Position numbers and translations under genes: made by a program. From assembly GCA_020629005.1 (NCBI GenBank), contig JAHDEE010000006.1, forward strand, positions 1 to 64,000: a stretch of 64,000 nucleotides of DNA, read 5' to 3'. The notes beneath the pieces were generated by a model. It made no database searches. It had not been told where the DNA came from and saw only the letters and a list, made by a program, of their open reading frames with translations. This document shows positions 3,901 to 25,200 of the stretch, piece after piece. Source of the stretch: Chitinophagales bacterium (lineage in GTDB: Bacteria > Bacteroidota > Bacteroidia > Chitinophagales > UBA2359). Numbering within the stretch: position 1 is the stretch's first letter; the number at the start of each line of letters is the position of its first letter.

Positions 3901-6900
3901 CACAGTATCCATCATTGTCGCTATCGCTGTTGTCCGGATTACACGGATCATCAACGTCAGGATCTTCGTTGTCGCAAACGCCATCGCCGTCACTGTCTTG
4001 ACCATCTGGGATACAAGCATTCTCTGGCTCTGGATCAGCATTGTCGCAATGACCATCACCATCCGAATCAGTGCCGTCAGGAATACACTCGTCTTCCGGC
4101 TGTGGATCTTCATTATCGCAGATTCCATCGCCATCTGTATCGCTATCATCCGGGAAGCATGGATCTTCCGGAAGCGGATCAGAGTTATCACAGAATCCAT
4201 CACCGTCTGTATCGGTGCCATCAGGTATACATTCGTCTTCTGGCTCTGGATCAGCATTGTCGCAGATTCCATCACCGTCTGAGTCCGTTCCATTAGGAAC
4301 ACATTCGTTTTCCGGCTCTGGGTCAGCATTATCACAAACACCATCTCCGTCAGTATCTGCTCCCTCAGGAATACACTCATCCTGTGGATCAGGGTCATCA
4401 TTGTCACAGATTCCGTCGCCGTCAGTGTCGCTACCATCCGGTATACAAGCATCTTGAGGATCGGGGTCTGCATTGTCGCAGATACCATCTTCGTCCAGGT
4501 CTTCGCCGTTCGGCACACATTCGTTTTCTGGCTCAGGATCGCCATTGTCGCAGATTCCATCACCATCCGTATCGGTACCGTCAGGTATACACTCATTCTC
4601 TGGCTCTGGATCGGCATTGTCGCAAATGCCATCACCGTCTGAATCTACACCGTTCGGCACACATTCGTTTTCTGGCTCAGGGTCAGCATTGTCACATACT
4701 CCGTCGCCGTCTGTGTCAGCTCCGTCAGGAATACACTCGTCCTCCGGCTCAGGATCTGCATTGTCGCAAATTCCATCACCATCGCTGTCCGTGCCGTTTG
4801 GTATACACTCGTTCTCTGGCTCAGGATCGCCGTTGTCGCAGATTCCGTCACCATCTGTATCGGTACCATCTGGTACACATTCATTTTCTGGCTCTGGATC
4901 TGCGAAGTCGCAAACACCATCACCATCAGTGTCTGTGCCATCAGGGACGCATTCGTTTTCTGGCTCCGGATCTGCGTTATCGCAAACTCCATCACCATCT
5001 GAATCTGTTCCATCTGGTACACACTCATTTTCTGGTTCTGGATCGCCGTTGTCACAGATTCCATCGCCGTCAGTGTCCGTTCCGTCAGGTACACATTCAT
5101 TTTCTGGTTCTGGGTCAGCATTGTCGCAAATACCGTCTAAGTCAAGATCGCTTCCATTTGGAATACACTCGTTTTCTGGCTCAGGATCGCCATTATCACA
5201 AATACCATCTCCATCTGTATCCGTTCCATCAGGTACACATTCATTTTCTGGTTCCGGATCATCAATGTCACAAATTCCATCGCCGTCCGTGTCCGTGCCA
5301 TCTGGGATACAAGCGCTTTCCGGGTCAGGATCTTCGTTATCACAAACTCCGTCTCCGTCTGCATCGGTTCCATCGGCTACGGTGATTTCCATTGAACAGC
5401 TGCTGCTGTTGCCACAAGCATCTGTAGCAGACCAGGAATACACTAGAACCAAGGGATTTTCAGGACATCCGGATCCTCCGTTGTCTTCCGATCCCAGGAA
5501 CAGAATCTCCACTGATCCGCAATCGTCGTCTGCTACAATAACCACAGAATCTGGCGATGGAACAGCGTCAAGGCTCGTCAAGGACAGTGCATCAGGACAA
5601 GTAATTGTCGGTGCAGTATTGTCTCCTACGCTAATTGTCTGAGTGGCTGTCGTGACATTTCCGCAATCATCGGACAATGACCAGACTCTGGAAATCGTAT
5701 AGGAACCAGCGCAGTCACCCTCAGTCATCATATCTTCGTAAGTAGCCTCAGCTACGGTCTCGCTACATGAGTCTGCCTCGTCAGTTACATCGCCAGCCAA
5801 TTCAAGATTTGAGAGGTCTTGATCACATCCCAGGCTAACATCTGCAGGAACGGTGAAAGTTGGAGCTGATTCGTCGTAAACTGTTATTGTCTGAGTGGCA
5901 GTTGTTGTGTTTCCACAGTAATCTGCAACCATCCAGGTTCGAGTTACGGTGCTTGCACCAGCGCAGTCCCCTTCAGCTACCTCATCTTCATAAGTGGTCG
6001 TTATTAAATCCTGGAAGCAGTTGTCGAACAGTTCGCTAACTGTACCGGTCAATTCTGTATTATCGATGTCTTGCTCGCATGAGATGCTTACTGCAGACGG
6101 CGCAGTAAATTCTGGCGCTGTTGTATCTTCCAGATAGATCAATTGCTCTGCAGTGCTGCTGTTTCCGCAAGCATCTGTGGCAGTCCAAGTCCTGGTTACT
6201 ATGCGATTTCTTTCGCACATGTTGTAGCCATTGTCTTCATCGACATAGGTCAGTTCAACTTGATCAGCTCCACAATTGTCGTAAAGTTCCAACACAGCTC
6301 CTGTGAGATCGGTGTTTGAAAGGTCAGTATCGCATTCAACCGTGATTTCGGTCGGAGCAACAAATTCAGGAGCAGTGGTATCCTGCTGTGTAATGACCTG
6401 AATATCGGTTGTGGAATTTCCGCAAGCATCCGTTACTGTCCAAATTCGATTGATAATATTATATCCTGGACATTGTTCTCCTTCTACTACATATTCGTCT
6501 ACATATTCAGCTGTCAATCCTTCCGAGCAATTGTCTGCCGCATCGTTAACGGTTCCCAAAGCTTCCTTGTCAGAAAGATCAATATCACACTCTACTACAA
6601 TGTTGTCAGGAGCAGTAAAAGTTGGCGGCGTGGTATCCTGCACAGTGATGATCTGAACTGCCGTTGCAGTATTTCCACAAGCATCGGCTAGCGACCATGT
6701 TCTTTGAATTGTAGCGCTGCCTTCGCAAGCGGCATCGTCTTCAAGTGGTTTGTCTTCGTATGTAGCTTCCAACATACCCTCTGTACAGCTGTCTGCGGCA
6801 TCGCTAACATTGCCAGTAAGTTCCAGATTGTTTGGGTCCTGGTCACATTCAATGACTGCATCTGCCGGAGCAGTGAAGGTCGGAGCAGTTTCATCTACTA

Positions 6901-9900
6901 CAGTAATTACTTGTAGTTGGCTGCTTGTGTTTCCACATGGATCTGTGGCAGACCAAAGTCGATTAATGGTATAGTTACCACTGCAAGTACCTTCCGCTGG
7001 AATTACCTCATCTTCGTAAGTGGCAGTCAACATTCCTTCAGCACAGTCATCAGTCACTTCAATCATGATTTCGCCCGGGCCAAGGTCAGCATCGCAGCTG
7101 AGTGTTAGGTCTTCAGGAGCAGTAAATACTGGCCCGTGTGTATCCTGTACAGTGATCGTTTGTATAGCTGTGCTTGTGTTACCGCATTCATCACTTACTG
7201 ACCAGGTTCTGGTAATCGTATAATTTCCAGTACAGCCTTCCAGTTCGCTCTTTGAGAACTCGTCTGTGTAGCTTGCTGCCAATTCGCCTTTGCTACAGTT
7301 GTCTGTTGCATCTGCAACAGTACCAACAATATCAGGATTGTCAATATCCGCAGTACATTCGATCGTAAGATCAGCAGGAGGGGTGAAACTTGGTGCCATT
7401 TCGTCAACAACAGTAATCACCTGAACCTGTGTAGTGGTGTTTCCACAAGGATCTGTAGCAGACCATGTTCTGTTAATGGTATAGCTACCGGAACAGCCGC
7501 CTTCGCTTACAATAAGCTCATCCTCATAAGCAGAGGTGATGCCTCCTTCTGCGCAGTCATCATTTGCATCCAACTTGATCTCTCCCGGCGCCGTATCCGA
7601 ATCGCAGCTGACAGTCATGTCTTCAGGAGCGGTGAAAACTGGTCCATGTGTGTCTTGAACGCTTATTATCTGTACGGCTGTAGTTGCATTGCCGCACTCG
7701 TCTGTGAGTGTCCAGTTCCTGAAGATCGTGTAGGTCCCGGTACATGTTTCTAATTCTCCTGGAGTAATCACGTCTTCATAAACTGCTTGCAATTCTCCCT
7801 TTGAGCAGTTGTCTGCTTCATCGGTTACATCTCCAAGCAATTCCAGGTTTGATACATCCTGGCTACATTCAATCACTGCATTATCAGGTACAGTGAAAGT
7901 TGGAGCAGTTGTGTCTTGAATAGTAATATTTTGTGTGGCTGTAGCTGTATTGCCGCAATCATCGACAGCGGTCCAGGTTCTGCTGATGGTATAGTTCGAA
8001 GGGCAAGCTGTAGTTACTTCACTGGATAGTTCTCCTCCGGTTTCGCCAGAGCTGATCTTGTCTTCATAACTGACTTGTAGTTCACCTGTATTGCAATCAT
8101 CGCTTAGATCTGAATAGTCTCCTGTGAGTTCTAGATTTGTTGGGTCCTGATCGCATTCTAGTGTCACGTCTTCTGGCGCTGTAAAGGTAGGAGCGGTTGT
8201 GTCCTGAACTGTAATAGTTTGTTTTGCCAGAGCAATATTTCCGCAGGCATCTTCAACTGCCCAAAGTCTTGTAATGACATAGTTTCCCCGGCATGATTCT
8301 CCCTCAGGTGCCAGAACTTCATCTGTATAAGTTGCCCCGAGGAGTGCTTCTGAACATGCATCTGCTCCATCTGTAACTGTACCGGTAACGGCCGGGTCGT
8401 CGAGGTCGGCACCACATTCTACTGTCACGTCGGCTGGGGCGGTTAAAGTGGGCAATACGTCTGCCACTACAGTGATGACCTGGACATGGCTGGTACTGTT
8501 CCCACATGGGTCAGAAGCTGTCCAAACTCTGTTAATAACATATGCATTTGGGCAGCCATTTTCACTCGGTATGATTTCGTCAACGTATGTTGGTGCGAAG
8601 GCTTCCTTGCTACAAGCATCTGCAGCTCCTTTTGTTACTGATCCGGCTGCTTCTGCGATATTTACATTGCAGCTTAGCGTCACATCTTCTGGTGGAGTAA
8701 ACTGCGGTCCCTCTGTATCAACGACAGAAATCACTTGTACAGCTGTGCTTGTGTTACCACAGGCATCGGTAAGCGTCCATGTTCTGTTGATAGTGTATGC
8801 TCCCGTACAAGCAGTTACTTCTCCTGGTATGTTCTCGTCGGTATAGGTAGCTTGCAAAAGTTCCTCAGAACAGCTATCAGCTTCATCCACAACATCACCA
8901 GTAAGCTCAAGGTTTCCTGCCGACTCAGTACATTCAATGCTAACATCACCTGGCACTGTAAAAGTCGGTGCTACATCATCTACCACTGTTATTACCTGGG
9001 TCTGATAAGAAGAGTTTCCGCAAGCATCTGTTGCTACCCAGGTCCTATTGATAATATAATCGTTTGCGCAACCACCTTCAACGGGCTCTGTCTTGTCGCT
9101 GTAGGTAGGAACGATGGTCCCTTCGTTACATGGGTCTATTATCTCTGCGGAAACAGTTCCTGCTACCTCGTCAACGTTGTCGGTGCAGCTGATTGTAATA
9201 TCAGCAGGAGCTGAGAATACAGGGCCCTGTTTGTCTACTAGTGTAATGACCTGAGTTGCCGACGCGGAGTTTCCACAAGCATCTGTTAGCGTCCACACTC
9301 TGTTAATGGTGGAATTTCCCGTACAACCCGGAATCGCTCCTGGAACTACTTCATCGACGAAGGTGGCTTCCAAGGGGGCTTCTGAGCAGCTGTCAGCTTC
9401 ATCTGTTACATCTCCCATGAGTTCCAGGTTGGACACGTCCTGATCGCAACTGACACTGAGATCTCCGGGTACTGTGAAAGTGGGTAGTACGGTATCCGTG
9501 ACAGTGATTACCTGTACCTGCACATTAGAATTTCCGCATGGGTCGCTGGAAGTCCAGGTTCTGTTTATCGTATATTCCCCAGGACATCCTGTTTCTCCAG
9601 GAATGATTTCATCCGTGTAAGTTGGTGTGAAAGTTCCTATGTTACAAGCATCAGCGCCCCCTTTTTTGATGGCTCCTCCAGCAATGCTCAGGTCCGAGTC
9701 GCAACTAACTGTTGCGTCTGGCGGAGCTGTAAAGCTTGGCGGAGTAGTATCCTGTACAGTGATGATTTGCACCTGCGGCGTTTGATCCGGGCAAGCAGGA
9801 ATAATAGACCATGTTCTTGTAATGGTATAGTTTCCCTGACAAGCTTCAGGAGTGCCAGGAGTAATTTCGTCCACGTAAGTAGCTTGATCACATCCAGCTG

Positions 9901-10078
9901 GTTCGTCCAGCACATCTCCGACTATTACGAGGTCGCTTGTGCTTTGTGTGCACTCAATTGTGATGTCCGGCGGTGCGGTAAATGCCGATAGGTTAGTGCA
10001 ACAAATGAGCTGTAGCAGGATCAATAGCAGCAAGTGCGTATGCCATTTTCCTACCCAATAAATGAAATTTTTATTCAT
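908..10078 (-). CDS. Giant T9SS-secreted repeat protein (HYR-like + Cys-TSP3 + TSP3 + type A sorting domain)
   Basis: A 3056-residue protein. Residues 1-32 form a signal peptide (KWHTHLLLLILLQLICC core). Residues 33 to about 1566 hold 18 repeats of about 85 residues of the HYR-like type, each starting FTAPxDxxxxC and ending ATDxCGNxxTxxQxITVxDTxAP, with about four cysteines each. Residues 1567-2359 hold 33 copies of a 24-residue DxDGDGxCDN unit. A non-repeated domain (about 2390-2555) follows, then 10 classical TSP3 repeats (DTDGDGxxDGxE...GTDP, about 2560-2781). About 2782-2970 includes a segment typical of Bacteroidota surface proteins (LSFDGETLEEGNRLNWIT...). The last ~80 residues (QAFPIPVQDQ ... 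FDVLGREVA ... LPEGEYLIKV) are a T9SS type A sorting domain. Predicted calcium-binding, surface-attached or released; the biological role is not known. Confidence 0.9.
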   Translation of the reverse strand: MNKNFIYWVGKWHTHLLLLILLQLICCTNLSAFTAPPDITIECTQSTSDLVIVGDVLDEPAGCDQATYVDEITPGTPEACQGNYTITRTWSIIPACPDQTPQVQIITVQDTTPPSFTAPPDATVSCDSDLSIAGGAIKKGGADACNIGTFTPTYTDEIIPGETGCPGEYTINRTWTSSDPCGNSNVQVQVITVTDTVLPTFTVPGDLSVSCDQDVSNLELMGDVTDEADSCSEAPLEATFVDEVVPGAIPGCTGNSTINRVWTLTDACGNSASATQVITLVDKQGPVFSAPADITISCTDNVDEVAGTVSAEIIDPCNEGTIVPTYSDKTEPVEGGCANDYIINRTWVATDACGNSSYQTQVITVVDDVAPTFTVPGDVSIECTESAGNLELTGDVVDEADSCSEELLQATYTDENIPGEVTACTGAYTINRTWTLTDACGNTSTAVQVISVVDTEGPQFTPPEDVTLSCNVNIAEAAGSVTKGAADACSKEAFAPTYVDEIIPSENGCPNAYVINRVWTASDPCGNSTSHVQVITVVADVLPTLTAPADVTVECGADLDDPAVTGTVTDGADACSEALLGATYTDEVLAPEGESCRGNYVITRLWAVEDACGNIALAKQTITVQDTTAPTFTAPEDVTLECDQDPTNLELTGDYSDLSDDCNTGELQVSYEDKISSGETGGELSSEVTTACPSNYTISRTWTAVDDCGNTATATQNITIQDTTAPTFTVPDNAVIECSQDVSNLELLGDVTDEADNCSKGELQAVYEDVITPGELETCTGTYTIFRNWTLTDECGNATTAVQIISVQDTHGPVFTAPEDMTVSCDSDTAPGEIKLDANDDCAEGGITSAYEDELIVSEGGCSGSYTINRTWSATDPCGNTTTQVQVITVVDEMAPSFTPPADLTIECTADIDNPDIVGTVADATDNCSKGELAASYTDEFSKSELEGCTGNYTITRTWSVSDECGNTSTAIQTITVQDTHGPVFTAPEDLTLSCDADLGPGEIMIEVTDDCAEGMLTATYEDEVIPAEGTCSGNYTINRLWSATDPCGNTSSQLQVITVVDETAPTFTAPADAVIECDQDPNNLELTGNVSDAADSCTEGMLEATYEDKPLEDDAACEGSATIQRTWSLADACGNTATAVQIITVQDTTPPTFTAPDNIVVECDIDLSDKEALGTVNDAADNCSEGLTAEYVDEYVVEGEQCPGYNIINRIWTVTDACGNSTTDIQVITQQDTTAPEFVAPTEITVECDTDLSNTDLTGAVLELYDNCGADQVELTYVDEDNGYNMCERNRIVTRTWTATDACGNSSTAEQLIYLEDTTAPEFTAPSAVSISCEQDIDNTELTGTVSELFDNCFQDLITTTYEDEVAEGDCAGASTVTRTWMVADYCGNTTTATQTITVYDESAPTFTVPADVSLGCDQDLSNLELAGDVTDEADSCSETVAEATYEDMMTEGDCAGSYTISRVWSLSDDCGNVTTATQTISVGDNTAPTITCPDALSLTSLDAVPSPDSVVIVADDDCGSVEILFLGSEDNGGSGCPENPLVLVYSWSATDACGNSSSCSMEITVADGTDADGDGVCDNEDPDPESACIPDGTDTDGDGICDIDDPEPENECVPDGTDTDGDGICDNGDPEPENECIPNGSDLDLDGICDNADPEPENECVPDGTDTDGDGICDNGDPEPENECVPDGTDSDGDGVCDNADPEPENECVPDGTDTDGDGVCDFADPEPENECVPDGTDTDGDGICDNGDPEPENECIPNGTDSDGDGICDNADPEPEDECIPDGADTDGDGVCDNADPEPENECVPNGVDSDGDGICDNADPEPENECIPDGTDTDGDGICDNGDPEPENECVPNGEDLDEDGICDNADPDPQDACIPDGSDTDGDGICDNDDPDPQDECIPEGADTDGDGVCDNADPEPENECVPNGTDSDGDGICDNADPEPEDECIPDGTDTDGDGFCDNSDPLPEDPCFPDDSDTDGDGICDNEDPQPEDECIPDGTDSDGDGHCDNADPEPENACIPDGQDSDGDGVCDNEDPDVDDPCNPDNSDSDNDGYCDNADPDPQDPCVPDGEDADNDGYCDLIDPQPQDPCVPFDHDADGDGVCDNIDPEPENACIPNGVDTDNDGICDQEDPAPDDACNPYSLDTDGDGVCDVIDPIVLDPCVPVGTDSDGDGVCDNIDPEIYNSCVPDATDTDGDGVCDNEDPEVENPCVPNGTDSDGDGVCDNEDPDADNPCIPDASDVDGDGFCDHEDPQPEDACVPNGTDADGDGVCDNEDPQPENACIPNGSDADGDGICDNDDPAPEDACVPNGEDADGDGYCDSVDPQPENACVPDGTDTDGDGLCDNTDSAPENPCVPFACAPEELCADGATDSDGDGICDDAESEEGSDPNDPCDPNNTDSDLDGYCDVEELQNESDPTDPCSPDPLAIPDGDCDGDGYTNAEDPEPMVPTAYGLDITDPCVCDNPNNYQVGGDFYVAELATITAPAGDTWELDIFSYGIYDDAAQPIATATFTPAADGTYTLAFFVKAEAAYNIIVSNGTDNLVYFGEALDCVCEEEDSDEDGLSDEEEEELGTDPLDPDTDGDGINDGEEGDIGTDPTIPDTDGDGVEDGQEVDNGTDPVDPGLDVDNDGLYADAEIHLGTNPYDPDTDGDGIQDGDEGDFGTDPTIADTDGDGLIDGDEGDYGTDPTIVDTDGDGVQDGQEITNGTDPTTMGSDEDNDGLFEDAEVDLGTNPLNPDTDGDGIPDGDEGDFGTDPTNPDTDGDGLLDGEEIVMGTDPTKEEGESCPYEFELALEYICDSEALEWQVYGTIIGGQAPYTITGSFETIELNGNSFVATLGQAVNSVYIEAVEAGGCVFVNDVQDLGTCIKLSVELLSFDGETLEEGNRLNWITTDEQDNAYFILEHSTDGINFMEISRQESHGSNAVNNYGYLHFNAPPGLSYYRLSSVDNDGTQEYVEKIVTLNRAANEKFEVQAFPIPVQDQMTVEVAADQDQMIEIIVFDVLGREVAKLSQQASAGLTQIAYDASALPEGEYLIKVTGTNSSKVVNFLKL
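1735..2400 (-). repeat. 10 classical thrombospondin type 3 repeats
   Basis: The unit DTDGDGxxDGxExxxGTDPTxP recurs ten times without cysteines. The series contains an internal duplication: blocks DxDNDGLYADAEIHLGTNP and DEDNDGLFEDAEVDLGTNP open two similar sub-arrays. These repeats normally bind calcium and form a rigid stalk before the sorting domain. Confidence 0.8.
3000..5379 (-). repeat. 33 tandem 24-aa (72-bp) cysteine-bearing TSP3-like repeats
   Basis: The unit consensus is TDTDGDGICDNxDPEPENECVPDG minus minor variants, written here in parts: TDTDGDGICDN followed by xDPEPENECVPDG. I counted 33 consecutive copies with no insertion. The DxDxDG loops are calcium-binding in thrombospondin type 3 repeats, and each unit has two cysteines at fixed spacing (11 residues apart). 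Antisense frames across this stretch produce long spurious open frames. Confidence 0.85.
5380..9982 (-). repeat. 18 tandem HYR-like repeats (about 85 aa each)
   Basis: Each unit has xC near residue 11, a mid-unit DxC, a further C before YTINRTW, and a final CGN. The last unit (starting ITCPDALSL) is divergent. Two unit types alternate over repeats 2-13: type A (SC start, SDPCGN, QVQVITVVD) and type B (NLELTGDVTDEADSC, LTDACGN, AVQVITVQD). This is an Ig-like beta-sandwich class commonly found in Bacteroidota surface proteins. Confidence 0.85.
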
Positions 10079-11073: not shown

Positions 11074-12564
11074 TTATCTCAACACTAGTAGTTTTAGCAT
11101 TTGCATCTGATTGTTTTGCAGGAACACTTGCAGTAGGTAGCTACCATTGGGAAGAGTTTCCAGGCTGAGTTGTCCGCCATTGCTTGCTTCGCAATTATCA
11201 ATCAGACGTCCCTGGAGGTCCAATATATTGAGTTCAGTTATGTTCGTTATATCTCCGGAAAGTTGGAATTGTCCATTCGCCGAAGGGTTTGGGAATACCG
11301 TAAACAGAGGCGCTGCTATTGTTTCATTATTTATTGAGCAGGCCGTCGTGGTGACGGAAACAGAATTGCTGGAGAGACTGAAGCAATCGCTGGAGGCCAA
11401 ATCGGTGATGGAGCTACCGGTTTCTGCATTTAGTTCACCAGTGTACGAGAAACCATAAATCAGGAACTGTGTTTCTGCAACTCCCATGAAATCATATGCT
11501 GCATCACTAATCTGGCTGATGATGATCCCATCCGGATTGGTCAGAATGTAGGTATAAGAGCTGGCCGCAGTTGAGCTAGTACCAAAAGGGATCAATGTGT
11601 CTGGGTTTGGATCATCAATGCAAATTTCTACCACATCTGTACCATCCTGTGCAAAGATCTCTCCACCGGAAACCAAGCTGCTGCAGTCTGGAGTGTCAAT
11701 GATGGAAATACAATAGTCTGGTGCTTCCAGCTGATCCGAGATGGCAGCGATCTGTGTGGCTTCATCTGAAAAATCCGGTAGGCTGGCCAATACAGAATTC
11801 ATGCTAAGTGCTGGGGTTGACCATACAGAAGAGGAATAACAGGGGGTCAAATCAGTAAATCCATTTTCGTGTAGCAGTCGGTCCACCGACCAGATAGAGA
11901 AAAGGGCGTCTGGAAGAGAAGTTGCCGGATAGCCAAAGAGTGTGGTTAACTCAAAGAGATCATCCAGATCGGCTATGTTCTCCTCAGCAAGATCCTGTAT
12001 GAAGCCGCAATCGTATTCTTCAGGAAGTTCTTCTTCTATTACCGAACAAATGAGGGGATCTGCTACAAAATCCAAAATTGCATTGATATGTGCCAGAGAG
12101 AAGGCGAAACCACTTACGCAGACTTGCGTGCCTGCAGCTAGAGCTGGAAGACTGCCATCACCAGCAGGGTCGGTAGGGTTGAGTGTTCCGTCGAGGCTGG
12201 ACAATAGGTAGCAAGGTTGGCCTGCAACTGGGCAAATCTCCATGATATAAGCATAGTCTCGACTGCTAAAGGATCCATCCGGTAATTCAACTGAAGCAGG
12301 CAGACTAGCATCAGCCGGATAAACGGCACCATTATCTGCCGTTGCGCCATTCTGCTGATACAATTGATAGTCGCTTCCATCTACGTATATAGTGTAATTT
12401 CCATTGCTGTCCATTGGCGCGGCATCGGGAGCAGTTAGAGTTCCGGCGCTGACGGATAAGTTATTGCCTCCATCGAGGCCGCACATACTTTGCGATTTTA
12501 GGGTAGTTTGACTGCAAAAAAGCAGCGTGACAAAGAGAAGGGTTTGATTAAAGGTCTTGTACAT
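11074..12564 (-). CDS. T9SS-secreted protein with type A sorting domain
   Basis: A 496-residue protein. The N-terminus MYKTFNQTLLFVTLLFCSQ is a signal peptide. Residues about 300-405 (GGEIFAQDGTDVVEICIDD ... YTYILTNPDGIII ... FLIYGFSYTGEL ... DCFSLSSNSVSV) are a divergent copy of a module repeated in many Bacteroidota gliding-type proteins. The final ~75 residues (FTVFPNPSANGQFQL ... LNILDLQGRLI ... LPNGSYLLQVF ... LLVLR) are a T9SS type A sorting domain. The middle of the protein is Cys-containing and unassigned. It is transcribed divergently from the receptor/FGE unit, and its terminator lies beyond an inserted MITE. Function unknown; cell-surface or released is likely. Confidence 0.85.
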   Translation of the reverse strand: MYKTFNQTLLFVTLLFCSQTTLKSQSMCGLDGGNNLSVSAGTLTAPDAAPMDSNGNYTIYVDGSDYQLYQQNGATADNGAVYPADASLPASVELPDGSFSSRDYAYIMEICPVAGQPCYLLSSLDGTLNPTDPAGDGSLPALAAGTQVCVSGFAFSLAHINAILDFVADPLICSVIEEELPEEYDCGFIQDLAEENIADLDDLFELTTLFGYPATSLPDALFSIWSVDRLLHENGFTDLTPCYSSSVWSTPALSMNSVLASLPDFSDEATQIAAISDQLEAPDYCISIIDTPDCSSLVSGGEIFAQDGTDVVEICIDDPNPDTLIPFGTSSTAASSYTYILTNPDGIIISQISDAAYDFMGVAETQFLIYGFSYTGELNAETGSSITDLASSDCFSLSSNSVSVTTTACSINNETIAAPLFTVFPNPSANGQFQLSGDITNITELNILDLQGRLIDNCEASNGGQLSLETLPNGSYLLQVFLQNNQMQMLKLLVLR

Positions 12565-12902
12565 AATTATTGGGTTTTAATTTTTGATATCGTCTTCGCA
12601 TCTATGCTATGCGGCTAATTGCAAGTATAGGGGCAATTTAGCAGCAAAACTCTATTATTTTTAGCCTTTGAAAGGTATTGATAAAGACAGATTTGCGTGG
12701 CTTTTGTCCCTGGAATCAAGCTTTGCAAAGCAAGCAGGAGCGTTCTAGGTATATTTTCTTCAATTCTGCCAGAAAGTAGCTCTGCCAAAACAATTTCCGG
12801 GCTAAGCCTGTTAATTGGCACATCTTTTTGTTGCTATTTGTCAAATTTACCCGCAAGCTTACGAGATTGCGTTTTCATAAACGATCTATAGACTCATTAC
12901 GT
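12565..12902. other. Divergent intergenic region
   Basis: This sits between the minus-strand 496-aa gene and the plus-strand receptor operon. Short open frames on both strands have no start context or recognisable product. A weak minus-strand box TATACTTG (complement of about 12634-12641) is one base from the Bacteroidota -7 consensus; I do not call it. Confidence 0.4.
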
Positions 12903-12910
12903 TAACTTTG
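12903..12910 (+). promoter_or_regulatory. Candidate Bacteroidota -7 promoter box (TAACTTTG)
   Basis: An exact match to TAnnTTTG lies 17 nt upstream of the TTG start of the receptor gene. No TTG/TTTG -33 element is present at the usual 19-21 nt spacing. If it is used, the mRNA leader would be only about 10 nt. Confidence 0.3.
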
Positions 12911-12927
12911 ATAAGCTGAATTTAATC

Positions 12928-15543
12928 TTGAAAGAAGTGCAGAGAGCGTTTTACAACTGTTTTTATTTTGTTTGTGTTCTGATTATTTTGACAATTTCCA
13001 GTGGCCTCCAGCCGCTGATTGCTCAAGATGAAGAGCCGAACTTTAGCACCACAGTGTCTAGTCATTGTGGCATGTGCCAGGACAGAATACTGGAGGCTGC
13101 AATCTCTGTGGATGGGGTTTTGAAAGCTACCTATAATCTTGATACCAAAGAGCTCAGTCTGGAGACGAATGAGCAGTTCAATAAAAGGGATTTGGCACGC
13201 ATACTAGCCGCCGCTGGTCATGATTCGGATTTGCGAAGGGCAGATCAACATAGCTATGAGGCTTTGCCAGGTTGTTGTAAGTACAGAGATCCAAATCTAA
13301 AGCCTTGCAGCCCGGATGAAGGGCAAGCAAATCCGGAAAGTGCTTCAGATTCCGCTACTGAAGATTTCGGTTTTGTAAGTGGAATCATACAGGAGAAAGA
13401 TGATTCTGGTGAGTTACGGTCACTGCCTGGCGTGAATGTGTATTGGAAAGGGACTGAGCTCGGCGCAAGCACTGACGAGGAAGGTAAATTCCGCATTGAG
13501 CGTGATGCTAAGACAGACTCGCTAGTTGTGAGTTATGTCGGTTTTGACAATGATACCATCAATATGAGTGCCCGTGAGGCGGTTAACCTCGTATTGTCTC
13601 AGGCCGTGGAACTGGGAGAGGTGGAGGTAAGGCATAAGAGAAGAAGTACTTCGATTTCTTTTATGAATGCGATCAAGATAGAATCGCTCAATGAAAAGGA
13701 ACTGTGTAAAGCTGCCTGCTGTAACCTATCAGAAAGTTTTGAAACCAATGCTTCGGTCAATGCTAGCTTGACTGATGCAGTGACAGGCACTCGTCAGATC
13801 GAAATGCTTGGTCTGGCTGGCCCATATGTTCAATTGACTCAGGAAAACATGCCAGGGGTACGTGGATTAGCCGCTTTATATGGCATGTCCTTTACGCCGG
13901 GACCCTTTATTGAGAGTATTCAGATAAACCAGGGAACCGGCTCTGTGCTTAATGGATTTGAAAGCATGGTGGGTCAGATAAATGTGGAGCTTAAGAAACC
14001 AGCACATAAGGATAGATTGTTCCTAAATCTTTTTGCCAACATGGATGGCAGGATGGAAGCCAACCTCATATTGGCAGATCAGATTGCAGGAGATTGGTCT
14101 TCGAGCTTGCAGCTCCATGCCAGAGAGCAACCCTTTACAAGGGATATGAACAAAGATGGATTCATCGATAGTCCAATAGGGGGGGAGTACATTCTTGTGA
14201 ATCGACATCGGTTTAAGCTTAAAGCAGGCTGGGACGGTCAAGCTGGTATAAAGGCGGTGTTGGCAGACTCGCGTAGCGGTCAGGCCGAGTTTGATCCAAA
14301 TGGGCCAATAGATTCGGATCACCCCTGGGGTTCCTTGATTGAAAATAAGCGTTTAGAAGCCTGGACCAAGATTGGAAAACTCTTTGAAGGTGAGCGCACC
14401 AGCATCGGTTTTCAATTCGCCGGTTCCTGGCATGATCTGGATTCCTATTTTGGAGTACGATCCTATGCTGGTACACAAAAGACTCTGTACGGTAATATGC
14501 TTTATCAGCAGGTGCTTAAAAATCGGGCACATCAATTTACCAGCGGCCTAAGCCTTTTGATTGATGACTACAAGGAGCAGCTGCAGCTGCGGAATTTTGA
14601 TCGAAGTGAATTTACACCCGGTGCCTTTGTCGAATATAGCTATAAGCGAACGGATCGCTTTTCTGCCGTCGCCGGCCTCAGAGTCGATCGGCACAATTTG
14701 CATGGCCTCTTTGTGACACCTAGATTGCATTTGCGATACCTATTGGGAGAGGAAACCGTGCTCAGATTTGTTGCAGGGCGTGGGCAACGAAGTGCATCTG
14801 TGATTGCTGAGAATATTGGCGCTTTGGCGTCTTCAAGAAGCATTATAATTGATGAGCAGGATGCGTCTAAGCCTTATGGTCTTAATGCCGAGATTTCCTG
14901 GAATGTAGGTTTGAATTTGTCCAGAGAAATGGTGCTTGCAGGCAGAGCTGCGATGCTTTCTGCTGATATTTACAGGACACAGTTTCAAGAGCAGGTTGTC
15001 GTAGATTATGATCAAAGTGCAAATGCGCTTCATTTCTACAATCTCGAAGGTCAATCCTTCTCCAACAGCGCGCAGATACAATTTGACATAGAAGCCCTGG
15101 AGGATTTAGAAATTCGACTAGCCTATAGAATGAATGATGTAAAGACCCAATACGGAGAGGAGCTTCGGAGGAAGCCGCTTGTGGCTCAGCATCTTGCATT
15201 TGCTAATCTGGCCTACGAAACCGCGAATAAATGGCAGTTCGATGCTACCATATCCTGGAATGGTCAGAAGCGCATCCCGGACCTGATAGCGGTGCCTGAG
15301 CAATACCAACGCCAGTCAAGTTCTCCCGATTTTGTCACCGTGAACGCGCAGATTTCTAAGGTTTGGAAAGACAGGTTTGATTGGTATCTTGGAGCGGAAA
15401 ATCTATTGAATTTCAGACAAGATGATCCGATTATTGCCGTGTCGCAGCCGTTTAGCGAGCACTTTGATGCATCGCTGGTTTGGGGTCCGGTTTTTGGTCG
15501 AATGGTCTACACTGGTATTCGGTATAGAGTATTTCGAAAATAA
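12928..15543 (+). CDS. TonB-dependent receptor with N-terminal HMA domain (probable metal, possibly copper, uptake)
   Basis: An 871-residue outer-membrane receptor. The reading frame has no ATG near its N-terminus, so TTG at 12928 (or GTG at 12937) is the start; an in-frame stop lies at 12889. Residues 1-33 are a signal peptide ending LIAQ. Residues 35-105 look like a heavy-metal-associated fold with HCGMCQDRI (C47, C50). A second Cys cluster GCCKYRDPNLKPC follows at 115-127. Residues 148-225 are a carboxypeptidase-regulatory-like domain (FVSGIIQEKDD ... LPGVNVYWKGTELG). The plug spans about 235-360 with CKAACCNLSESF (C260, C264, C265) and VGQINVELKKP, and the beta-barrel occupies the rest. 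The receptor part resembles a Bacteroidota group that usually sits beside separate HMA proteins; here the HMA domain is fused. Substrate is inferred, not shown. Confidence 0.8.
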   Translation: MKEVQRAFYNCFYFVCVLIILTISSGLQPLIAQDEEPNFSTTVSSHCGMCQDRILEAAISVDGVLKATYNLDTKELSLETNEQFNKRDLARILAAAGHDSDLRRADQHSYEALPGCCKYRDPNLKPCSPDEGQANPESASDSATEDFGFVSGIIQEKDDSGELRSLPGVNVYWKGTELGASTDEEGKFRIERDAKTDSLVVSYVGFDNDTINMSAREAVNLVLSQAVELGEVEVRHKRRSTSISFMNAIKIESLNEKELCKAACCNLSESFETNASVNASLTDAVTGTRQIEMLGLAGPYVQLTQENMPGVRGLAALYGMSFTPGPFIESIQINQGTGSVLNGFESMVGQINVELKKPAHKDRLFLNLFANMDGRMEANLILADQIAGDWSSSLQLHAREQPFTRDMNKDGFIDSPIGGEYILVNRHRFKLKAGWDGQAGIKAVLADSRSGQAEFDPNGPIDSDHPWGSLIENKRLEAWTKIGKLFEGERTSIGFQFAGSWHDLDSYFGVRSYAGTQKTLYGNMLYQQVLKNRAHQFTSGLSLLIDDYKEQLQLRNFDRSEFTPGAFVEYSYKRTDRFSAVAGLRVDRHNLHGLFVTPRLHLRYLLGEETVLRFVAGRGQRSASVIAENIGALASSRSIIIDEQDASKPYGLNAEISWNVGLNLSREMVLAGRAAMLSADIYRTQFQEQVVVDYDQSANALHFYNLEGQSFSNSAQIQFDIEALEDLEIRLAYRMNDVKTQYGEELRRKPLVAQHLAFANLAYETANKWQFDATISWNGQKRIPDLIAVPEQYQRQSSSPDFVTVNAQISKVWKDRFDWYLGAENLLNFRQDDPIIAVSQPFSEHFDASLVWGPVFGRMVYTGIRYRVFRK

Positions 15544-15602
15544 TCTATCGCACTTGATCTGGCTCTCACCAGTATTGCTGCTTGAATTAACTCACAATCA
15601 CT

Positions 15603-16322
15603 ATGATTCGCAAATTCTCGGTCGCTTTGTTGCTGCTTTTTATTGCACTTTTGTGTGCACAGGCCCAACAATCCAAATGGCACAGTCAACAATCTGCCGA
15701 GACAGAAAGGAAGCTGAAAGTAGAAGGAGACTCGCTTCGATTGCTTGGTAATACGACAGCAAAGGTCGTTCAGCTCGAGCAATCGCTGAAATCCATGGAA
15801 TTGGAGCCCTTGAGTATAGAGCAGCGTCTGCAGGTGGAAGATTTGTACAAACAATATCTCCTTGCGCTACGTCGAATTGACGAAAACTTGCAAGATGTTG
15901 GGAAGAAGAAGATTTTGAGTAAGACACAGTTGACCAAGACGATGAATCGGGATTTGTTGGAAATCCTGACTGAAGAGCAAGGTGCATGCCTAGACAAAGA
16001 AAAACGAAAGGCCTATTTGGAAAGCAAGAGGTCGGTGCCAAAGGAGAAGACAAAACCGCTCAGCATCGGCGAGTTAGCAAACCTCGACTTGCAGGCCTTT
16101 GAAGAAGCAACACTGGCTGCAGGACTACCGCCAGCCGACAAGGGCAAACTGAATCAACTTCGAAATTTGCTGTTGCAACGGCAGATGGATTTAGCAAAGT
16201 ACAACAGCGATGAGATCGACAATAGCCTCCGACTTCAAATCGACAAAGATTTGAAGGATTTTGCAGCAGGAATGTTGGAGGCCGAATATCGCACCATTCT
16301 TGACCAGCTTCTTACACCTTAG
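15603..16322 (+). CDS. Exported coiled-coil protein of unknown function
   Basis: A 239-residue protein starting at ATG 15603, 59 nt after the receptor gene. MIRKFSVALLLLFIALLCAQAQ is a clear signal peptide. The mature part is charged and helical: SIEQRLQVEDLYKQYLLAL, ILTEEQGACLDKEKRKAYLE and a C-terminal DFAAGMLEAEYRTILDQLL, with heptad-like leucines. The paired helical segments and the LTEEQ-like motif recall Spy/CpxP-type periplasmic chaperones or metal sensors, but the match is weak. Its stop codon is 4 nt before the FGE start, so it is very likely co-transcribed with both neighbours. I do not recognise the family. Confidence 0.7.
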   Translation: MIRKFSVALLLLFIALLCAQAQQSKWHSQQSAETERKLKVEGDSLRLLGNTTAKVVQLEQSLKSMELEPLSIEQRLQVEDLYKQYLLALRRIDENLQDVGKKKILSKTQLTKTMNRDLLEILTEEQGACLDKEKRKAYLESKRSVPKEKTKPLSIGELANLDLQAFEEATLAAGLPPADKGKLNQLRNLLLQRQMDLAKYNSDEIDNSLRLQIDKDLKDFAAGMLEAEYRTILDQLLTP

Positions 16323-16326
16323 CTGC

Positions 16327-17478
16327 ATGTTGATGGACGCTGTCACCGCTTTCTTCAGATTTGCTGTATTTTCATTGCTGACTTGCATGCTGCTGCTTAG
16401 CTCCTGCAATGACAGCTCAAGTTCGAGCAGTCAAGGCTGCCATGATGAAAGCATCCAGCACCCAAATGAAGCATTCACAATAGAAGAGGCCGGTCAAATC
16501 CTTGCTTCCATTCCCGTCGATTCAGCTATGGCTGCTAGCACTGAGGGCATGAGACTCATCCCTGGTGGAACCTTTGAGATGGGAGGCTCCGGCAAGCTTG
16601 CCAAGCGAGACGAATTCCCCCTGCATCAGGTTAGCCTGGAATCATTCTGGATCGACGAACATGAAGTGACCAATGCCGAATTTCGAGCTTTTGTGCAGGC
16701 AACAGACTATGTCACTACTGCCGAACAGGATATATCGGCGGAGGAGATCCGAAAGCAATTACCTCCGGGCGCCGAAATGCCACCTGCCGAATTGCTCAAA
16801 GCTTCCTCAGCAGTTTTTTCTCAGCCGGCATTTCAACAAGGAGCCAGGTATACCTTCCTCGATTGGTGGTCTATGACTCCGGGTGCAAACTGGAAACATC
16901 CTCAGGGGCCAGCATCAAGCATCTTGGGCAAGGATGATTTTCCCGTTGTCCATGTTTCCTGGTACGATGCCCAAGCTTATGCAAAATGGGCTGGAAAGCG
17001 TCTGCCTACGGAAGCAGAATGGGAGTATGCAGCCAGGGGCGGGCTAGCAGCCAATACTTACCCTTGGGGAAACGAACCTATCGAAAGCGGAGCGCCTAAG
17101 GCCAATTTTTGGCAAGGGCAATTTCCGGTGGAAAACGAAAATACAGATGGATTCGAAAGGCAAAGTCCTGTTGCCAGCTTTGCTTCGAATTCCTACGGCC
17201 TCTTTGATATGGCAGGCAATGTTTGGGAATGGACCTCAGACTGGTATCATGCCACACATTATGAAAACCGCGCCGGAAAAACCAGTATTAATCCCAAAGG
17301 ACCGGAACGCTCTTACGATCCGGAGAATCCGGCCGCCCAGGCAAAAGTGATGCGAGGAGGTTCTTTTCTCTGCAATGACAGCTACTGTGCGGGCTATCGG
17401 GTATCTGCCCGGATGAAATCAAGCCCCGATACTGCGCTGGAGCATACTGGATTTCGGTGTGTACGAACGCATAGGTAA
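16327..17478 (+). CDS. Formylglycine-generating enzyme (FGE/SUMF1) family lipoprotein with both active-site cysteines
   Basis: I chose ATG 16327 (383 residues; ATG 16333 is also possible), 4 nt after the previous stop; an upstream start at 16261 would overlap that gene. Residues 4-26 are hydrophobic and end in a lipobox LSSC (C27), so the protein should be a lipoprotein. The FGE domain runs from about 75 (MRLIPGGTFEMGG) through VSWYDAQAYAKWAGKRLPTE, YGLFDMAGNVWEWTSDW and RGGSFLCNDSYCAGYRVSAR to GFRCV. C349 and C354 match the copper-binding catalytic pair of true FGEs; many SUMF1-like domain proteins lack them. FGEs oxidise a cysteine in sulfatases to formylglycine with O2. No sulfatase is in the window, so the substrate may be different or encoded elsewhere. 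Confidence 0.88.
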   Translation: MLMDAVTAFFRFAVFSLLTCMLLLSSCNDSSSSSSQGCHDESIQHPNEAFTIEEAGQILASIPVDSAMAASTEGMRLIPGGTFEMGGSGKLAKRDEFPLHQVSLESFWIDEHEVTNAEFRAFVQATDYVTTAEQDISAEEIRKQLPPGAEMPPAELLKASSAVFSQPAFQQGARYTFLDWWSMTPGANWKHPQGPASSILGKDDFPVVHVSWYDAQAYAKWAGKRLPTEAEWEYAARGGLAANTYPWGNEPIESGAPKANFWQGQFPVENENTDGFERQSPVASFASNSYGLFDMAGNVWEWTSDWYHATHYENRAGKTSINPKGPERSYDPENPAAQAKVMRGGSFLCNDSYCAGYRVSARMKSSPDTALEHTGFRCVRTHR

Positions 17479-17484
17479 AAAACA

Positions 17485-17525
17485 AAAAAAGAAAAGCCCT
17501 CCTGATGAAGGGAGCGCTTTTCTTC
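17485..17525 (+). terminator. Rho-independent terminator of the receptor-FGE unit
   Basis: An imperfect stem AAAAGC-CCTCC / AGGGAG-CGCTTTT with loop TGATGA, followed by CTTCTCT. It starts within 10 nt of the FGE stop codon and is A-rich before and T-rich after, so it could act in both directions. Confidence 0.65.
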
Positions 17526-17642
17526 TCTAAATAAACCAAAACTTAAAGCAAAGAAAATCTAACTTGCAGATTGCAGGCTACAAATTAGTTTGTTATAGTA
17601 CTATACTCGCAAATTCCTATGATGGTTGCCTGGTTAAAGGCG

Positions 17643-17650
17643 TAAATTTG
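17643..17650 (+). promoter_or_regulatory. truC: Candidate -7 promoter box (TAAATTTG followed by CA)
   Basis: An exact TAnnTTTG match continuing as TAAATTTGCA, the form typical of Bacteroidota promoters. It lies 117 nt upstream of truC. A TTG at 17626 is only 14 nt upstream, shorter than the usual -33 spacing. Confidence 0.45.
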
Positions 17651-17767
17651 CACTTTTCTATGCCGCACTTCAATATGGCGATTTTTTTACTTATCTGCTA
17701 GGCCTTTTGTCGTTATTTGACATTTATCTTTTTTCGAGGTCATTGTTAGGACAGTAATTACGATTCA

Positions 17768-18487
17768 TTGAAATTAGACATTCTTTTTCAAGACGAAAGC
17801 TTGGTTGCTATCAATAAACCTCCCGGTTTGCTCGTCCACCGCACTAGAATTGCCGAAGAAAGGAAGTACTTCGCATTACAATTGCTACGCAATCAGATCG
17901 GTCAGAGAGTTTATCCTGCCCATCGGCTAGATCGGAAAACATCCGGAATATTGCTTTTTGCAAAAAACAAAGAAGCGGGAGCCATCTTGGCCGAACGATT
18001 TCGCTCTCGTTCTGTCAGGAAAATCTATTATGCCATCGTAAGAGGCTATATTGAGGAGAATCAGCTTATAGACTACGAACTCAAGAAGGCAAAGCTAGGG
18101 CTGGCACAGGAGGCAAAGACCCACTACAAACGTCTGGCGCAGGTCCAGATCGATATCCCTGTCGGGCCATATCAACAATCTCGCTATTCACTTGCGGAAG
18201 TTCAACCACTAACAGGTCGCATGCACCAAATCCGCCGACATTTCGCGCACATTCGTCACCCTATAGTGGGTGATCGGCCACATGGCGATTGGCGGCACAA
18301 TAAGATGTTCAAAGAGACTTTGGGTATTCCGCATATGCTGTTACACGCCTCTTCTCTTCAATTCCAACATCCCTTCAAGACACAAGTCATCCAACTCAGA
18401 GCACCGTTATTCGACTCTTTTGAGAAGGCTTTGGCCACTTTTGGCTGGCAAATCCCGAAGGAAGAGAATTTGAAAAATTTGCTTTAG
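17768..18487 (+). CDS. truC: tRNA pseudouridine(65) synthase TruC
   Basis: A 239-residue protein of the RsuA/RluA pseudouridine synthase family. The motif HRLDRKTSGILLFAK (residues 52-66) carries the catalytic aspartate D55. The KPPGLLVHRT block near residue 17 and the GRMHQIRRHFAHIRHPIVGD block are also typical. GDWRHNKMF after VGDRPHG is characteristic of TruC rather than RluA/RluD. It isomerises U65 in certain tRNAs in the cytoplasm. The frame has no ATG: an in-frame TAG lies at 17747-17749, so TTG at 17768 is the most plausible start. The stop codon overlaps the beginning of a hairpin repeat element (18483). Assignment to TruC is by motif memory. Confidence 0.82.
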   Translation: MKLDILFQDESLVAINKPPGLLVHRTRIAEERKYFALQLLRNQIGQRVYPAHRLDRKTSGILLFAKNKEAGAILAERFRSRSVRKIYYAIVRGYIEENQLIDYELKKAKLGLAQEAKTHYKRLAQVQIDIPVGPYQQSRYSLAEVQPLTGRMHQIRRHFAHIRHPIVGDRPHGDWRHNKMFKETLGIPHMLLHASSLQFQHPFKTQVIQLRAPLFDSFEKALATFGWQIPKEENLKNLL

Positions 18488-22220: not shown

Positions 22221-25200
22221 ATGAGGATATTATTTTTTCTCCTACTGTTGTCAATAGGTACTTTTCGACTTGATGTATTGAGGGCTCAGGATGCCCTCGA
22301 TGTACTTTCATTGGAATGTTTAGATTCGTCAGACTATTTACTTGTGCCGATGGTGATCAATGGGGAGCAGCCGCTGGAAATTGTTCATTCCGATTTGGAA
22401 TCTACTGTTGGAATCTACATATCACTCTCCTCCTCGGAGGTGCATCCCACGAACATAATCGTGACTCCTGACAATGGAGAACCCTTCGCCCTGGAGATGC
22501 ATCCTACTGAGCAAAACACCATTTTTTGGACTGGCTACTTGCCGATTGCACTGGGCGACTTTAGTGTGCAAGCGGATGGAGCTAACATTGAAGAAGAATC
22601 TTTTATCACATCAATCTATGTGCTTGGTAGTGCAGGTTTTACCGCAGGGAATATTGACGCATATTTTTTTGGCGAATTTCTGGATTACAATTTGGGTCCT
22701 CCCTTCATTCAGCCAATGGAAGATTGCTACAGTTTTGATGTTCCAATTGCGGTCGATCCACAAGGGAATTTGCACAACTATTTACTTAAGTTAGTGCTAC
22801 GCGATTTGCAGGGATCTGAGAATCCAGCCTCTCTTCGGCTTACCTATGGGGATATAAGCGCTGAATTTGAGATTTTCGGAACAGAAGCGTTTTCCGACCT
22901 GGCCGTATTTGAACAGACGCTCATTAACGTTGATCCCACTGGAGTTCCTTTGGAAATTCTGCTCTGTTCCAAACAGTTTAATGCGAATGATGCCCTTGGA
23001 CAACCTTTCTTTCTAGAATCAATTGCTTTGCTTGAAGAAGATGATTGTTGCTTTGAAGTTCTGGACACACAAGTTACCCCTCCAGACTGTGGCCAAAACA
23101 ATGGGTCAATTGCTCTTCTGCTCTCTGAAGACACCGGCCCCTTTCAGATTGACTATACGCTTCCAGACGGAACTCCGGTTTCGGAGACAATTCCCTTTCA
23201 GAACGGGGGGGTTACTATCGAAAACCTTCCTGCAGCTAACTATATTATAACAATCACAGATACGGAGGGTTGCGAACTTGTTTTATCTAATCTGACGGTA
23301 CCTACAGCCGCTGGCTGCTGCGATGATCTTTCGCTCACTTACATGAGCTTCAACCCAAGCGCCTGTGGGGTAAATGACGGCTCCATTGATATGCAGGGAG
23401 TTGGAGGCAGTGGTGAATATGAATTTTCAATCGATGGTGGTGAAATATGGTTCACTGCAGGATTGTTCAACAATCTTCCTCCTGGGAGCTACCCCTTAGC
23501 AATCAGAACAATTCAAGATGATTGCTTCGCATTAGCAGAAACAGCAATCTTGACAACACCAGAAGGCATTGTCGTGACAGACGTAAGCGTCAGTCCGGTC
23601 TCTTGCTTTGGTGACGAAGATGCTCAGATCACCGTTACCGTAGATGGAGCTACAGCTGGTCTGCAATATAGTATCGACGCAGGCATTACTTATCAATCGG
23701 AAAATGTTTTTGCTGGGCTTGCGGCAGGAATCTATGAACTGTTTGTCAGTTCAGGAGATGATTGCACTATTGAATATGGCCAAATTTTGATTGAAGCTCC
23801 GACAGAATTGGAACTCATAGATATCGTTGATAACGACGTTAACTGTGTGGGAAATGGTGAGGGCTCGATCGAGATATATGCTTCAGCTGGTGAAGGGGTA
23901 TCACTTCAATATTCAATAGATGGCGGTGAAACCTTTACAGATAACAGTGTATTCCTGGGATTAGATCCTGCTGTTTACCAAATAGCCGTTCGTAATCTTG
24001 CAGGCTGCTTGGTAACTGGTGAGGCGACCATCAATTTTAATGGTGCAGATCTCGTTGAGTTTGATGTTAGTTTCCAGGAAAACTCTGGTTGCGGCGAGCA
24101 AGATGGTTTTATTGAATTCACCGCCTTGGGCGGTGTTCCTCCCTATCAATATTCAATCGATGGAGGACTTGTTTATCAGACTCAGCCTTTATTTGAGAAT
24201 CTTGGAGGGGGCTTTTATGAGCTATACATCAAAGATCAAAACGATTGCATCGGAACCTATGAAGCTGGGGTGCTTTCCTTCGCCTCTTCTGAATCCCCGC
24301 TGGTTTCTGATGTGCAATATTTTAATCCTTCCTGTTTTGGGGGTGACGACGGTGTGATCTCGATTGTCGCAGCCGGCGGCTCCGGAATCCTCGAATACTC
24401 TGTGGATGGTGGCGACACTTATATCGCTTCCAACACTATCGACGGTCTAACTTCAGGCTTGTACGAAATTCTGGTAAGGGACGATGCTGGCTGTACCGTC
24501 ACTTTTGAAAATGAGATATTGCTTCTTGATCCAGATCAGCTTTCAAACATAACAATAGAAATTACGCAGCTGCTAGATTGCGAAAGTAACAGCGCAACTG
24601 TTGAGGTATTTACTGTAGGCGGGACAGGATTACTGGAATACTCTGTTGATGGGGGCGAAACCTATTCTTTTGACAATAGCTTTATCGATCTTGATGCAGG
24701 GATTTACAATGTAGTGGTAAAGGATGCGAATGATTGCTCCCTCGATTACGAGGAAAATCCAGTGATTATTGAAGAGCCAACTGAATTCCTTGGCGTGGAT
24801 GTTTTGGCGCTGGATGTCACTTCCTGTGCTGAGCCCGATGGGCAGATCATCATTACTGCAACTGGAGGAGTTGATCCGCTTGAGTATTCAATTGACAATG
24901 GTATGACCTTTACGGAAGAGAATGTATTTAGCGGATTGTCAAGCGGAGAGTATCAGATTCTGGTTCAAGATGGTCTGGGCTGCGAAGCTGCTTACACAGA
25001 AACAGTAACGCTGGGACAGCCAGATGACATCGCGATCACAGATGTGCAAACTACACCGCTCGTTTGTTCGGGAGACGGTACAGGCCAGGTGACAGTATTT
25101 GCTTCTGGCGGCGCAGAGCCTTTGGAATATTCGCTCAATGGTGAGGACTGGCAATCAAATAATCAGTTTACTGATTTGCAAGCCGGTTCCTACACGGTCT

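Follow-up and report, generated by a model that had tools for sequence, protein, structure and literature searches.

The human formylglycine-generating enzyme (FGE, or SUMF1) resides in the endoplasmic reticulum (ER), and the characterised bacterial FGEs are, to our knowledge, cytosolic. The same product, formylglycine, is made by the anaerobic sulfatase maturase (anSME), a radical-SAM enzyme. It was reported that FGE requires copper in stoichiometric amounts (PMC4505483) and that its binding of Cu(I) is linear (PMC7279497). Here, an FGE gene and the two genes that precede it, encoding a TonB-dependent receptor and a small helical protein, were analyzed in the first 64,000 nucleotides (nt) of contig JAHDEE010000006.1 of a Chitinophagales bacterium (GCA_020629005.1). 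This whole stretch is called the window, and coordinates are window positions; all three genes lie on the + strand. The analysis makes it likely that the window FGE is an extracytoplasmic, copper-using maturase of the secreted sulfatases of its own genome, and that the receptor is a separate metal-acquisition gene. The features of the FGE gene that are needed first are as follows.

16327..17478, + strand: lipoprotein formylglycine-generating enzyme, 383 amino acids (aa) (Pfam, phmmer, orthologue alignment)
16405..16407, + strand: putative lipid-anchor Cys27 (LLLSSC), read from the sequence by eye, with similar segments in most orthologues
17371..17373, + strand: Cys349, first ligand of the Cu(I) pair, aligned with solved FGEs and invariant in orthologues
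17386..17388, + strand: Cys354, second ligand of the Cu(I) pair, aligned with solved FGEs and invariant in orthologues

The protein matched PF03781 over model positions 3-255 of 255 (Pfam, E=5.8e-82), and phmmer matched it to the solved FGE of T. curvata (4e-79) and to human FGE (4e-74). The CxxxxC pair that an earlier note on this DNA had picked out (C349 and C354) was aligned onto the Cu(I) ligands of solved FGEs. Neither residue varies among 13 orthologues, and the window protein also keeps the other residues of the invariant set. A hydrophobic N-terminal segment and a lipobox-like LLLSSC ending at C27 were recognised by eye. Judging by its sequence, the exported, catalytic-type FGE lipoprotein described in the earlier note is present, and its lipid anchoring, the side of the membrane, the copper occupancy and the activity are predicted. 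In the proposed mechanism, the FGE would be exported via Sec and lipid-anchored at Cys27, and Cu(I) would be bound at Cys349 and Cys354, as is known for the family. Newly exported, unfolded sulfatases would then meet the enzyme, which would convert the cysteine of their CxPxR motif to formylglycine using O2.

The earlier note had asked which protein such an enzyme modifies, had remarked that no sulfatase is nearby and had proposed a search for exported proteins with a CxPxR-like motif. The remark holds for the window; elsewhere, however, the genome encodes six sulfatases of the Cys type (C-[ST]-P-[ST]-R) with hydrophobic N-termini. Their motifs are CTPTR, CSPSR, CTPTR, CSPSR, CSPTR and CTPTR, and no sulfatase with a Ser-type motif was found in the source genome. 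The question of the target very probably has an ordinary answer, namely these six proteins. Two genes for exported Cys-type sulfatases, with the motifs CSPSR and CTPTR, adjoin each other at G000:C149:21434-24258 (L012, L014), and a similar pair is present in the congener (G001:C506). About nine PF03781 genes were found in the source genome, and only the window FGE contains CxxxxC. No anSME was recognised in this genome, the best match to TIGR03942 scoring 88 bits, where the cut-off is 349. Since neither an anSME nor another FGE with the Cys pair was recognised, the window FGE is the sole maturase candidate found in the genome, which is a draft assembly of 456 contigs (96.7% complete).

Neighbourhoods of FGE genes were then compared in a sample that was assembled from FGEs similar to the window one and is not a balanced survey. 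Of the 51 Bacteroidota loci in this sample, 14 have a Cys-type sulfatase gene no more than four genes away from the FGE gene, and in 12 of them the two genes are immediate neighbours. The adjacency covers Chitinophagales-like, Cytophagales-like and flavobacterial relatives, and plasmids from Streptomyces, Bradyrhizobium and Halomontanus carry the pairing too. For further comparison, 61 related genomes were used, among them that of the congener G001, the sole other member of the genus in this set. FGE orthologues were detected in 13 of them (E up to 1e-30), and A4-type sulfatases were present in 7 of these 13 genomes vs 8 of the 48 without FGE (Fisher p=0.011, kinship being ignored). Thus, the family, the active-site residues, the six Cys-type sulfatases and the recurrent adjacency of FGE and sulfatase genes all argue for a sulfatase maturase.

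Several points weigh against this assignment. A second maturase could be missing from an assembly in 456 pieces, and the co-occurrence test treats related genomes as if they were not kin. In addition, the eight genomes with A4-type sulfatases but no FGE match at the threshold used carry, among the sulfatases read, nearly exclusively Cys-type proteins. Four of these eight genomes are less than 80% complete, and in others a more distantly related FGE may be at work.

The second subject is the receptor gene, whose features are listed below.

12928..15543, + strand: TonB-dependent outer-membrane receptor, 871 aa, TTG start (Pfam)
13063..13221, + strand: HMA domain, residues 46-98, with CGMC at residues 47-50 (PF00403, 23.2 bits)
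13273..13290, + strand: CCKYRD, residues 116-121, end of the HMA unit, to be compared with YxxLPxCCxYRD of stand-alone partners
13699..13725, + strand: KELCKAACCN, residues 258-266, family signature at the start of the plug (homologue alignment)

The domain order of the receptor is an N-terminal HMA domain, a CarboxypepD_reg-like domain (1.8e-13) and a TonB beta-barrel (1e-18). The fusion of HMA and receptor proposed in the earlier note is real, though the PF00403 score lies slightly below the cut-off of 24.8 bits; this part of the protein aligns with stand-alone HMA proteins encoded beside homologous receptors. Homologues of the receptor were found in 44 of the 61 genomes, mostly without the HMA part, which is fused to the receptor here and in G001, G007 and G041. 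The usual neighbours of these homologues are a small HMA protein resembling CopZ, with YxxLPxCCxYRD at its end, and a small Cys/His-rich protein, one of which was identified as HYC_CC_PP (NF047658) above the cut-off. The window receptor is homologous to this Bacteroidota family over most of its length, including plug and barrel, and shares with it the KAACCNLSESFETN signature, whose AACC part is common to nearly all homologues, as well as the type of HMA domain. It differs in that the HMA domain, usually encoded by a separate gene, is fused to the N-terminus. No open reading frame (ORF) of at least 80 aa encoding HYC_CC_PP was found in 12564-15543 or directly after the receptor gene, and a literature search for the receptor family and for HYC_CC_PP returned no relevant paper. 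Judged from the CopZ-like HMA and HYC_CC_PP neighbours only, the family is of a metal type, probably for copper, which agrees with the earlier suggestion. We suppose that the window receptor gene would be a separate one, for metal acquisition, from a family that is widespread in Bacteroidota, and that its HMA partner became fused to it; its placement before the FGE gene is a feature of the source genus. A second receptor of the HMA-associated family, lacking the HMA domain (KAACCDLAGCFETQ), was observed at G000:C264:25278-27419 (L050), on a contig that also encodes a Cys-type sulfatase (16548-17855); a similar receptor is present in the congener (G001:C453).

The remaining features of the locus are the gene between the receptor and FGE genes and a hairpin behind the latter.

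15603..16322, + strand: exported all-helical protein, 239 aa, genus-restricted, no Pfam/NCBIfam match
17489..17524, + strand: intrinsic terminator hairpin 3' of the FGE gene (-18.7 kcal/mol, z=-4.28)

The three genes had been interpreted as one dedicated unit, in which copper brought through the outer membrane by the receptor and its HMA domain is passed to the exported FGE, the middle protein assisting. The layout on which this idea was built was reproduced, with gaps of 59 nt between the receptor and middle genes and 4 nt between the middle and FGE genes, followed by the stable hairpin, which appears in the terminator list on both strands. The spacing is also short in the congener (11 nt, then a 4-nt overlap), so co-transcription of the trio is plausible. 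Such a unit would fit the stoichiometric copper requirement of FGE and the CopZ-like and Cys/His-rich neighbours of the receptor family. However, the complete trio occurs in 2 of the 61 genomes only, namely the source genome and G001, and there nine consecutive genes are collinear over about 35 kb, from a Por-tail protein at 11074 to a giant protein ending at 46109. The congener block contains a single inserted gene, an acyl-CoA dehydrogenase-like ORF identified by reading its sequence. Because the whole block is collinear, the order of the trio was regarded as background synteny, and a conserved three-gene operon was rejected as functional evidence. The earlier note had named a lack of conserved synteny as grounds for refuting the unit, and the unit fails on this count. 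Outside the congener, neither the receptor nor an HMA partner was found at an FGE locus among the 51 Bacteroidota neighbourhoods, and no FGE was linked to the receptor in 20 receptor neighbourhoods, among the matches listed. Moreover, G007 carries its HMA-fused receptor and its FGE on different contigs, with unrelated genes flanking the receptor, and in G041, whose receptor is likewise fused to HMA, no FGE match was obtained. These observations make a dedicated unit unlikely. The exported FGE and the metal-type receptor family of the original proposal stand, but the functional linkage between them is not supported, the shared gene order going no further than background synteny. A hand-over of copper from receptor to FGE is possible, resting on adjacency in one lineage, and periplasmic copper from the neighbouring receptor is one possible source for the enzyme, no better supported than any other.

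As for the middle protein, it was considered whether it could be a periplasmic chaperone or metal sensor similar to Spy, CpxP or CnrX, which in the former case would keep sulfatases unfolded for the FGE. A signal peptide, an all-helical AlphaFold2 model (pLDDT 82, pTM 0.44) and LSIEQ/LTEEQ-like stretches ahead of helices, noticed by eye, are consistent with such a role. On the other hand, searches of Pfam, NCBIfam and PDB sequences returned no match, nor did a PDB fold search (best E=0.34), and assignment to Spy/CpxP or another known fold was dropped. The gene is also confined to one genus, being present only in the source genome and G001 among the 61 genomes, and its product is fast-evolving, with 33% identity to the congener vs 65% and 63% for the flanking genes. 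On balance, a Spy/CpxP/CnrX-like function is a rather doubtful assumption.

It is highly improbable that the window FGE modifies a non-sulfatase, such as a copper or phosphonate enzyme, or is an inactive structural lipoprotein like PorK/GldK, since, although many FGE-fold proteins are non-catalytic, including PorK of the type IX secretion system (T9SS) (9mzu and others), the window protein retains both Cu ligands and the remaining invariant set, scores 164.2 bits against a cut-off of 350 for the GldK/PorK model TIGR03525, and has Cys-type sulfatases available as substrates.

In the N-terminal part of the window FGE, one further feature was recognised.

16438..16443, + strand: Cys38-His39, located in the N-terminal extension at 45 residues from the catalytic domain and at the CC/CH position of other FGEs

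In human FGE, the N-terminal extension contains Cys50 and Cys52; a review describes the extension as unique to higher eukaryotes and states that replacement of the two cysteines by alanine abolishes sulfatase activation (PMC7279497). According to another laboratory, the N-terminal extension is dispensable for FGE activity in vitro (PMC4505483). Among 64 FGEs that have the Cu pair, 26 contain a CC or CH in the extension, in most cases 33-51 residues ahead of the domain. In a count over 105 FGEs with the Cu pair, C[CH] occurred in the extension of 33 (5.4 +/- 2.2 when the residues of each extension were shuffled) and C.{1,5}P.R in that of 14 (1.9 +/- 1.3 when shuffled), in sequences that share ancestry and are not independent and with domain starts set by a simple pattern. 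Of 13 plasmid FGEs taken as an independent sample, three of them haloarchaeal, 10 have CC near the start, and one example, SCCSPSR, is identical to a sulfatase motif. None of the 10 FGE-family members without the Cu pair that were checked contained the element; the apparent exception, L097, does carry the Cu pair. The element takes the form CC, CH or CxC, often continued by xxR or PxR, as in SCCTPAR, CCAPQR and SCCSPSR, with CHSGVPSRFG and CCDKLPNR in exported FGEs, and the window FGE keeps only its Cys-His (C38-H39). Loci with CC/CH (L040, L041, L070, L071, L104-L132, L183-L188, L201, L231-L243) come from many bacterial phyla and haloarchaea; the element, often CCxxxR or C..xPxR, is similar to the CxPxR motif of the substrates as well as to the region around human Cys50/Cys52. 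Human Cys50 and Cys52, which by our count lie about 47-49 residues before the domain, are at a distance similar to that of the microbial CC/CH. An AlphaFold2 model of a motif-bearing orthologue, made for the N-terminal arm, was poor (pLDDT 49) and was not used. We tentatively propose that Bacteria, haloarchaea and animals might share a functional N-terminal Cys element, an arm that would load Cu(I) or act as a pseudosubstrate, of which human Cys50/Cys52 would be the counterpart. The microbial element conflicts with an extension restricted to higher eukaryotes (PMC7279497), and it offers a simple model for the need of human FGE for these two cysteines.

Elsewhere in the window, the + strand contains a row of very long ORFs at 22221-33395, 34431-46109 and 46907-64000 (3724, 3892 and >5600 aa). 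They are repetitive and mutually related, and collinearity with the congener extends over the first two. An ORF of 3056 aa at 908-10078 contains HYR-like repeats followed by a long DxDxDGxxD run (thrombospondin type 3-like) and has a sorting-like C-terminal end.

FGE needs both copper and an unfolded substrate, and in animals the ER meets both needs. If the only maturase found in a genome whose sulfatases are all Cys-type is a lipoprotein FGE, this chemistry would be placed in the envelope of a bacterium, which is accessible to genetics, and the way in which FGE obtains its copper would become testable there. Among the known systems, anSME differs from the window FGE and was not recognised in the source genome. 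PorK/GldK, the ring lipoprotein of the T9SS, is likewise an FGE-fold lipoprotein of Bacteroidota, but the window protein differs from it in keeping the Cu-binding Cys pair and is closer to FGEs (4e-79 vs 1e-28, phmmer). With the aerobic FGE/SUMF1 enzymes (T. curvata, 6s07; S. coelicolor, 6muj and 2q17; human, 1y1e), it shares the whole catalytic domain, the Cu(I)-binding CxxxxC pair and the RGGSFLC...GFRC landmarks, and it differs in being exported and probably lipid-anchored. Compared with these systems, the window FGE is best seen as a known kind of enzyme in a less studied compartment, namely as a putative sulfatase maturase located in the envelope.

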